Below, piece after piece: positions 24,719 to 26,282 of a stretch of 64,000 bases of DNA; within the stretch, counting starts at the first letter, position 1, and the number at the start of each line of letters is the position of its first letter. The notes beneath the pieces are model-generated. The model was not told the DNA's origin and made no database searches. It was given only the letters and a program-made list of their open reading frames with translations. The DNA is taken from contig NZ_AP025739.1 in assembly GCF_003574315.2 (NCBI RefSeq), positions 1,054,001-1,118,000 of the forward strand, given 5' to 3'. The position numbers were made by a program, and so were the translations under genes. The stretch is from Capsulimonas corticalis (GTDB taxonomy: Bacteria > Armatimonadota > Armatimonadia > Armatimonadales > Capsulimonadaceae).

Positions 24719-24748
24719 GAGAAGCAGAGAACGGTCTCCTGCTTCTCA
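24719..24748 (+). terminator. Hairpin after ilvD
   Basis: GAGAAGCAG and CTGCTTCTC form a hairpin shortly after the ilvD stop codon. A U-run is lacking, so it may be a weak or Rho-assisted terminator. Confidence 0.5.
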
Positions 24749-24757
24749 CTGCGAAAC

Positions 24758-24811
24758 TTAGTATAACAGAAATTAGTATAAGCATAATTATACTAATTTC
24801 TGTTATACTAA
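24758..24811. repeat. 54-bp perfect palindrome with four 9-mers at 15-bp steps
   Basis: Two 24-bp arms (24758-24781 and 24788-24811) are exact reverse complements around GCATAA. Each arm contains the 9-mer TTAGTATAA twice, so the element holds TTAGTATAA at 24758 and 24773 and its complement TTATACTAA at 24788 and 24803: four copies at exact 15-bp steps, joined by CAGAAA/TTTCTG. It ends four bases before the start codon of the ATPase gene and leaves no room for a ribosome binding site outside it. Either four protein subunits bind it, or the mRNA forms a 24-bp hairpin that hides the start. Confidence 0.9.
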
Positions 24812-24815
24812 ATCC

Positions 24816-26282
24816 ATGGAGAATGCTTCCCCTTTTTATAACCGCGTCCGCGAGCGCAAATCACTGGCGGACGCACTGAATTCGCCTCGCTCTGAGATGC
24901 TGATTGTCTACGGACGTCGGGGCGTTGGTAAAAGCGCGCTGTTGGATCAAGCCCTGAAGGACGCCAATTTGCCTTCGCTTTATTACCGGGCAACCCGGCG
25001 TACTCTGGCGCTCCAGTTGGAAGCGCTGACGGACGCCGCGCGCGAGGCGTTTCCAGACGCCTTTCTTGGACAGTCATTCGAATCGCTGACAGTCTTCTTC
25101 GATTTTCTCTCCCATTACGCCGCGCAGCGCGAAGACACAGGCAATCAATCTCCCATTGCCGTTGTCATTGATGAACTTCCTTATCTCGCAGATGTTGATC
25201 CGGGACTCTTGACCGTGATCCAGCATTGGTGGGACGCTAACAAGCGACGCCCCAATCTCAAGATCTTCCTCGCGGGCTCTTATGTCGCTTTTATGGAGCG
25301 ACAGGTGCTCGACGCCAGCGCCCCGCTCTACAATCGCCGCACCGGCGCGCTCAAGCTGGAGGCGCTGGACTATGCCGAAGCCGCACTCTTCTTTCCCCGC
25401 TACTCTCCGCAGGAAAAAATGGCGGCCTATGCAATCCTTGGCGGAATGCCTTCTTATCTGGAACAGTTCGATCCCGCTCAAGATATCGCCGACAATCTTC
25501 GCGCGACGGTATTAAGGCGCAATACTTATCTCTCAGAAGAGCCTGACTGGCTCCTGCTGGAGGACCGACGGCGCGACGTGACCCATGGATCGATCCTGCG
25601 CGCGGTGGCGACAGGGCAGCGCAAGCCATCGGACATCGCCCGCGCCATCGGGAAAAACTCGGCGCAGGACATCGCCCCGCAGCTCGCGTCTCTTCAGGAG
25701 CAAGGTCTGCTGATTCGTGAAGTCCCGATCACCGAGATGTCCCAGCCTCGTTCACGCACATCTTTGTACTATATCGCCGATAACTATCTGGATTTCTGGT
25801 ATCGATATGTCGATCCCGCGCGGAGCTTGATCGCACGCGGCTTGGGAGAACGAGTTTGGGAGCAGACAATTTCGCCAAATCTCGGCGAATATATTTCACG
25901 GCCCAGCTTTGAGCGCGCCAGCCGTCAATTTCTTTGGCGTATCTTGGAGAATTCGAATTCCGAAGAATTTACCGATCTCTCATTTGTGAATGTCGGCACA
26001 TGGTGGGGGGCGGGAGACCGTGAAATCGATGTCGTCGCGACCAATGAACGCGGTCAAGTGACGGTGGCCGGATCCTGCAAATGGACGGAAAGTCCCATGG
26101 ACGTACGCGAATACGCCGCGCTGCAAAGCGACCTGGCGCTCGCCGGCCTGACGCTCAGCGAAGCGCCATGGTGGTTCTTATTTTCCCGCTTGGGGTTTTC
26201 ACCGCATCTTACCGAGATTGCCGCAGCGCAAAATCCACGGCGGCTGATTCTGGTTGATTTAGATCAGATGTATCGTGTTTAG
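24816..26282 (+). CDS. P-loop ATPase with C-terminal DUF234 nuclease-like domain
   Basis: 488 aa of the ATPase_2 (archaeal-type AAA-like) family. Walker A is GRRGVGKS (33-40) and Walker B VVIDE (116-120); FLAGSYVAFME is the sensor region. A winged-helix segment follows (about 275-315, RKPSDIARAIGKN and LQEQGLLIREV). The C-terminal domain (about 320-488) matches DUF234, which belongs to the PD-(D/E)XK nuclease-like folds; DREIDVVA and GSCKW fit that motif. Such proteins are widespread in archaea and some bacteria and their function is unknown; defence or DNA processing has been considered. No Shine-Dalgarno is present; a 54-bp palindrome abuts the start. Base composition is slightly lower in GC than its neighbours, consistent with transfer. 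Confidence 0.85.
   Translation: MENASPFYNRVRERKSLADALNSPRSEMLIVYGRRGVGKSALLDQALKDANLPSLYYRATRRTLALQLEALTDAAREAFPDAFLGQSFESLTVFFDFLSHYAAQREDTGNQSPIAVVIDELPYLADVDPGLLTVIQHWWDANKRRPNLKIFLAGSYVAFMERQVLDASAPLYNRRTGALKLEALDYAEAALFFPRYSPQEKMAAYAILGGMPSYLEQFDPAQDIADNLRATVLRRNTYLSEEPDWLLLEDRRRDVTHGSILRAVATGQRKPSDIARAIGKNSAQDIAPQLASLQEQGLLIREVPITEMSQPRSRTSLYYIADNYLDFWYRYVDPARSLIARGLGERVWEQTISPNLGEYISRPSFERASRQFLWRILENSNSEEFTDLSFVNVGTWWGAGDREIDVVATNERGQVTVAGSCKWTESPMDVREYAALQSDLALAGLTLSEAPWWFLFSRLGFSPHLTEIAAAQNPRRLILVDLDQMYRV

Follow-up and report, generated by a model that had tools for sequence, protein, structure and literature searches.

A 54-bp palindrome directly before the start codon of an ATPase gene in Capsulimonas corticalis carries four 9-bp sites at an exact 15-bp pitch; the array is real, and arrays of this pitch are conserved before most of the gene's relatives that we examined in bacteria, archaea and phages. 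Strong comparative evidence makes an operator the most likely reading. On sequence comparison and a structural model, the element is probably an operator for autorepression, its 9-mers bound by the winged helices of the encoded protein at one unit per 15 bp, silencing the gene's own transcription.

The array lies at 24758–24811 (no strand assigned) of the window, by which we mean the whole 64,000-nucleotide stretch of DNA analysed. Sites 1 and 2 (TTAGTATAA, 24758–24766 and 24773–24781, forward strand) are followed by the inverted sites 3 and 4 (TTATACTAA, 24788–24796 and 24803–24811, reverse strand), and the two arms, 24758–24781 and 24788–24811, are reverse complements at 24 of 24 positions around the 6-nt loop GCATAA. 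An earlier note on this DNA had described just such a set of four 9-mers at 15-bp steps (starts at 24758, 24773, 24788 and 24803) within perfect 24-bp arms, and our reading agrees with it, as it does with the 4-base gap to the start codon (ATG at 24816) and the absence of a separate ribosome binding site: there is no Shine–Dalgarno-like sequence between array and ATG. The note had also placed the sites on alternating faces of the helix; a 15-bp step corresponds to about 154 degrees on B-DNA, and neighbouring sites are thus roughly but not exactly opposite. The 9-mers are near-palindromes in their own right (TTA-xxx-TAA), and the 'two plus two' arrangement therefore reduces to a single site type in two orientations. 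Neither 9-mer was found elsewhere within the 64-kb window. Across the 7,645,051-bp genome the double 9-mer pattern has no second occurrence, and the window array is the only match both to the degenerate pattern TTANNNTAA-N6-TTANNNTAA and to the inverted pair when as many as three mismatches are allowed. An AT-rich array of such order in a window of 61% G+C is not a product of chance. Upstream of it, directly 3′ of what we take to be a dihydroxy-acid-dehydratase-like gene, a GAGAAGCAG/CTGCTTCTC hairpin with a 9-bp stem and without a T run (24719–24747) possibly marks the end of that gene's transcription.

The 15-bp pitch proved to be a feature of the gene family. For 53 non-redundant upstream sequences of 90 nt each, from Armatimonadota, other bacterial phyla, archaea and phages, the best local self-match at every lag was compared with dinucleotide-preserving shuffles. 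Members outside Armatimonadota were reached via plasmids, phages and viral contigs; a single-protein query gave no match to the viral members, and an alignment query did. Lag 15 stood out with a combined Z of 41.7; lag 30 reached 9.5 and no other lag exceeded 3.3. These figures are no strict probability because the upstream sequences are mutually related. Taking a score of at least 8 as a clear match, lag 15 was found in 34 of the 53 family upstreams against 2 of 78 other genes from the same loci and the window (Fisher p = 1.6e-15). The matches comprise all seven members of the TTAGTATAA clade, 10 of 17 other Armatimonadota, 8 of 10 plasmids of other bacterial phyla, two of three archaeal plasmids and 7 of 10 phage or viral records; ATPases that match only the N-terminal part, without a C-terminal match, had none (0 of 6). 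Seven more genes were added after the test had been settled. Six are haloarchaeal, and in five of these 15 was the best lag, with a score of at least 10; one Haladaptatus and one Butyrivibrio gene gave no such match. About one third of the family tested lacks the pitch (L009, L014, L027, L029, L039, L052 and the Bacteroides group). In L029 and the Bacteroides-type genes (L043, L044 and L060) the best lag is 16, not 15, and the ATTATCTTTG-type sequences of L044 are perhaps a variant operator. The Haloferax and Haladaptatus plasmid genes L039 and L228 have a nearly identical stretch directly 5′ of the start codon and no 15-bp array; the common stretch suggests that the two may be under another mode of control.

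A search of the phylum for the double 9-mer, of the kind that the earlier note had proposed, returned it in 4 of 291 genomes. Apart from the window's own genome (G000), each of them has it at the beginning of the same gene or, for G187, of what is left of that gene. Other close relatives (L004, L013 and L016) have near-identical arrays. Among close relatives the spacers vary (CAGAAA, TCATGA, TGATGA, TCGTGA, TTGTAA), and the 9-mers and the 15-bp step are constant. In general, one unit consists of 6 bp and a 9-mer that is close to palindromic (TTAxxxTAA, TTTxxxAAA and variants). Distant members, at about 30% identity, have other 9-mers and keep the step. The array of L033 reads TTTACTAAA-gtatac-TTTAGTAAA-gtatac-TTTAGTAAA and that of Mesorhizobium L038 TTAGTGTAA-ccttga-TTACCGTAA-tcagga-TTACGCTAA; different 9-mers at the same step precede the genes of Vibrio (L046), Rhizobium (L040), Cetobacterium (L041), Arcobacter (L047), Methanocaldococcus (L042), Halorubrum (L037) and a gut phage (L049). 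Array sequence varies with the clade of the protein and not with the host. A second 54-bp palindrome (24+6+24) of unrelated sequence stands before a distant paralogue, L018 in genome G038.

In the reverse direction, a triple TTWNNNWAA at 15-bp pitch gave 14 distinct arrays in the 291 genomes, eight of them at an ATPase_2–DUF234 gene (five, with an early stop codon in the gene of G012) or at its remnants (three). Of the remaining six, one is a tandem repeat in G064, one lies in G207 and four lie in G237, a genome in which the reversed control pattern also matches five times. When viral sequences were scanned with a degenerate triple TTANNNTAA pattern, most of the strong matches listed were tandem repeats, and those inspected singly were of low complexity, coding repeats or near unrelated short ORFs; among the matches listed, none of 120 viral loci encodes the ATPase. 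The degenerate pattern therefore tells us little in AT-rich viral DNA.

We consider it very improbable that the array travels with the gene as the end of a mobile element or as a homing target. Such an origin would suit the patchy distribution of the family (25 of 291 genomes), its carriage by plasmids and phages, and the internally deleted remnants with intact arrays (L007, L080, L084), which recall MITE-like derivatives. However, the genome holds one copy, the 3′ end of the gene has no partner repeat, and two remnants at one locus in one genus indicate decay in place. Many unrelated intergenic copies, the outcome by which the earlier note would have recognized a mobile palindrome, were looked for genome-wide (7.6 Mb) and not found. 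Having neither dispersed copies nor paired terminal repeats, the single locus was rejected as a mobile palindrome or MITE. In an attempt to map empty sites, flanking gene order was found to be poorly kept in relatives.

Several arrays are kept in front of broken genes: L004 has a frameshift, L021 a stop at codon 6, and L007, L080 and L084 have internal deletions (genomes G187, G178 and G185 of genus g92). The deletion in L084 fuses the N-terminal 26 residues in frame to the C-terminal 58, and L007 apparently keeps the frame as well. The sequence downstream is common to L080 and L084, which marks them as a single locus with repeated decay. Recurrent decay fits, without proving, a costly and dispensable gene, for example a defence gene, and also fits the silencing of a potentially toxic protein.

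The gene behind the array (24816–26282, forward strand) encodes a 488-residue ATPase_2–winged helix–DUF234 protein. It passes the curated Pfam cut-offs for PF01637 (ATPase_2; 69.6 bits, cut-off 33.2) and PF03008 (DUF234; 67.7 bits, cut-off 22.5; residues 328–426, 25797–26093, forward strand) and matches the PADLOC model of candidate PDC-S27 over residues 9–368 (E = 6.3e-40; the match extends to residue 456 in L011), which makes it a member of the ATPase_2–DUF234/PDC-S27 family. AlphaFold2, run on a 10-row alignment (pLDDT 83, pTM 0.82), predicts an AAA+ ATPase, a winged helix at residues 256–320 (25581–25775, forward strand) and a C-terminal α/β domain. The winged helix comprises helices 256–265, 271–277 and 283–295 and wing strands 299–302 and 317–320; model, alignment and the Mantel test described below mark 283–295 (25662–25700, forward strand) as the putative recognition helix. 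The best structural matches are the archaeal ATPases 2qen and 2fna (Z of 21.7 and 21.5), followed by NLR/CED-4 proteins (Z 14–17) and Orc1/Cdc6-type proteins (Z 13–15). Because the ATPase domain dominates this whole-model list, the nuclease-like part was folded alone; it weakly resembles restriction-endonuclease-like folds (E 1e-3 to 4e-2), with LlaBIII, Card1 and EndoMS ranking behind 1y88 (E = 1e-3). Residues D405 and K422 are conserved, and the glutamate of the ExK motif is replaced by Ser420 (GSCK; 26073–26075) in the window protein, L011, L013, L016 and L053, most relatives having GECK. The nuclease of the TTAGTATAA clade and of L053 may, on this substitution, be inactive or altered.

Three lines of evidence point to the encoded protein as the binder. 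The array accompanies the gene in both domains and on different replicons, and the neighbours are unshared, no neighbouring gene being common to the annotated loci inspected. Genome G180 has two paralogues with different arrays, TTAGTATAA in L013 and TTTAGTAAA in L033, each resembling that of its own clade elsewhere. Furthermore, in a Mantel test on 20 genes of related sequence, with 9-mers hand-picked from the lattice, operator distance covaries with recognition-helix distance (residues 268–296) when the ATPase domain is controlled for (partial r = 0.245, p = 0.001) but not with DUF234 (r = 0.028, p = 0.36). We infer both that the encoded protein is the binder and that repression is the effect of binding. 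Several copies of the ATPase_2–wHTH–DUF234 protein would dock through the winged helix, one per 15-bp step; the docked 9-mers would cover the promoter and start region and repress the gene's own transcription, and cooperative assembly through the AAA+ domain would set the pitch. An activator or a partner regulator is also possible.

Binding of the operator by a different, host-encoded regulator seems quite unlikely. There is room for one, in that the array overlaps promoter-like sequences, the encoded protein is a putative binder and some neighbours are regulators (L040, L045). Against this stand the retention of the pitch in members as far apart as Methanocaldococcus, Vibrio and phages, the unlike arrays of the G180 paralogues, the want of a common neighbour at the annotated loci inspected and the finding that the degenerate pair matches the 7,645,051-bp genome nowhere else.

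Autorepression by the encoded protein also agrees with where the array lies. Of 34 arrays, 22 enclose the best −10-like box (two of the 22 are archaeal, and the sigma-70 model is not applicable to them). Near-consensus promoters are present in L007 (TTGACA-17-TATAAT), L010, L011, L016, L018, L024 and L033, and in several phage and viral members the array starts immediately downstream of the −10. A place within or beside the −10 is expected of a repressor's site. At the window locus the array, 4 nt from the ATG, overlaps the gene's own promoter/start region, as looked for in an autoregulatory operator; a sigma-70 promoter scan of this locus found none. The TATAAC of site 1 resembles a −10, and the −10 boxes of L007, L011 and L016 lie in or adjoin such a site. 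It is also possible, reading from the sequence, that TGTTATACT (24801–24809, forward strand), which overlaps site 4, serves as an extended −10; the transcript would then begin with the ATG or close beside it, as a leaderless mRNA, which would explain the missing ribosome binding site.

The earlier note had offered two readings, a dedicated multi-subunit operator and a translation-blocking hairpin. Pitch, uniqueness and clade-tracking uphold the operator; the hairpin, in which the RNA stem of the transcribed palindrome would sequester the start codon and block translation, is disfavoured as a general mechanism across the family and improbable overall, although at the window locus alone it is possible. 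There the RNA folds at −40.8 kcal/mol against −14.5 (s.d. 2.7) for shuffles (z = −9.7, 0 of 200), spacers 1 and 3 are perfectly complementary and the gene has no separate ribosome binding site. L004, L016 and L018 also fold strongly (z −7.9 to −10.7), and z is below −3 in 18 of 34 arrays, a count that palindromic sites confound: near-palindromic sites pair mutually anyway, making the fold a by-product. By contrast, excess folding is absent from the strong arrays L010, L023 and L025 (z −0.2 to −0.8), and the phage or viral L056, L058 and L059 reach only z −1.2 to −1.5; both sets retain the pitch. A stem needs no 15-bp pitch, whereas constant pitch is expected of protein docking, and in L011, L016 and L041 sequence resembling a ribosome binding site lies outside the array. 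If transcription starts at the ATG, the array at the window locus is not even part of the mRNA.

One cis-element geometry in both domains predicts protein assembly on DNA, one unit per 15 bp. The array offers a ready binding substrate for structural, footprinting and reporter work, and a simple sequence check of intact start sites in the ATPase_2–DUF234 family. A bolder and rather unlikely proposal is that it is the cognate ligand of a pan-prokaryotic Orc/NLR-like immune ATPase–nuclease, on which a filament or ring would silence the gene and keep the protein ready until invading DNA arrives or the bound form is depleted, at which point induction and attack would follow; if true, a single gene would make up the whole defence module, its DNA-tethered switch included. 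Still more remote is a docking platform that would also control the protein's immune activity, with oligomers parked on the array in an inactive state until invading DNA releases or activates them. The candidate defence family (PMC12988326), the NLR/Orc-like fold and the nuclease-like C terminus are in keeping with such a platform, but the serine in place of the ExK glutamate may disable the nuclease in the TTAGTATAA clade.

The accessible text of a 2026 survey lists PDC-S27 as a phage-defence candidate, an ATPase fused to a PD-(D/E)-X-K domain, with 3,503 archaeal and 4,562 bacterial detections and with validation pending for most PDCs (PMC12988326). arCOG03166, in the accessible text of its source, is a fusion of AAA+ ATPase, HTH and RecB nuclease with a likely role in defence (PMC4158269). 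We found no mention of an upstream array in those parts of the two sources, and in the open-access literature searched we recognized no description of the 15-bp array or of the regulation or target of PDC-S27-type genes. The PDC-S27 model matches the window protein, and arCOG03166, judged by its description, has the same ATPase–HTH–nuclease order. Orc1/Cdc6 proteins and archaeal Orc1-2, a non-initiator Orc1-type protein described as a transcriptional regulator in the accessible text (PMC9738581), combine AAA+ and winged helix in a related fold; unlike them, the window protein has an additional DUF234 nuclease-like domain, and the lattice of 15-bp steps that it probably binds lies at the start codon of the encoding gene and not at a replication origin. 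Autoregulated toxin–antitoxin operators (RelB, MazE6), as described in the accessible text of their sources (PMC2812701, PMC9477884), likewise lie at their own promoter and mediate self-repression, which is putative here; there is no antitoxin gene at the window locus, however, and regulator and putative effector would be a single polypeptide. STAND/NLR ATPases, such as plant resistosomes and CED-4, align with the window protein over ATPase and winged helix (Z 14–17), whereas the window protein lacks sensor repeats, has a C-terminal nuclease-like domain and is paired with a putative specific DNA operator.
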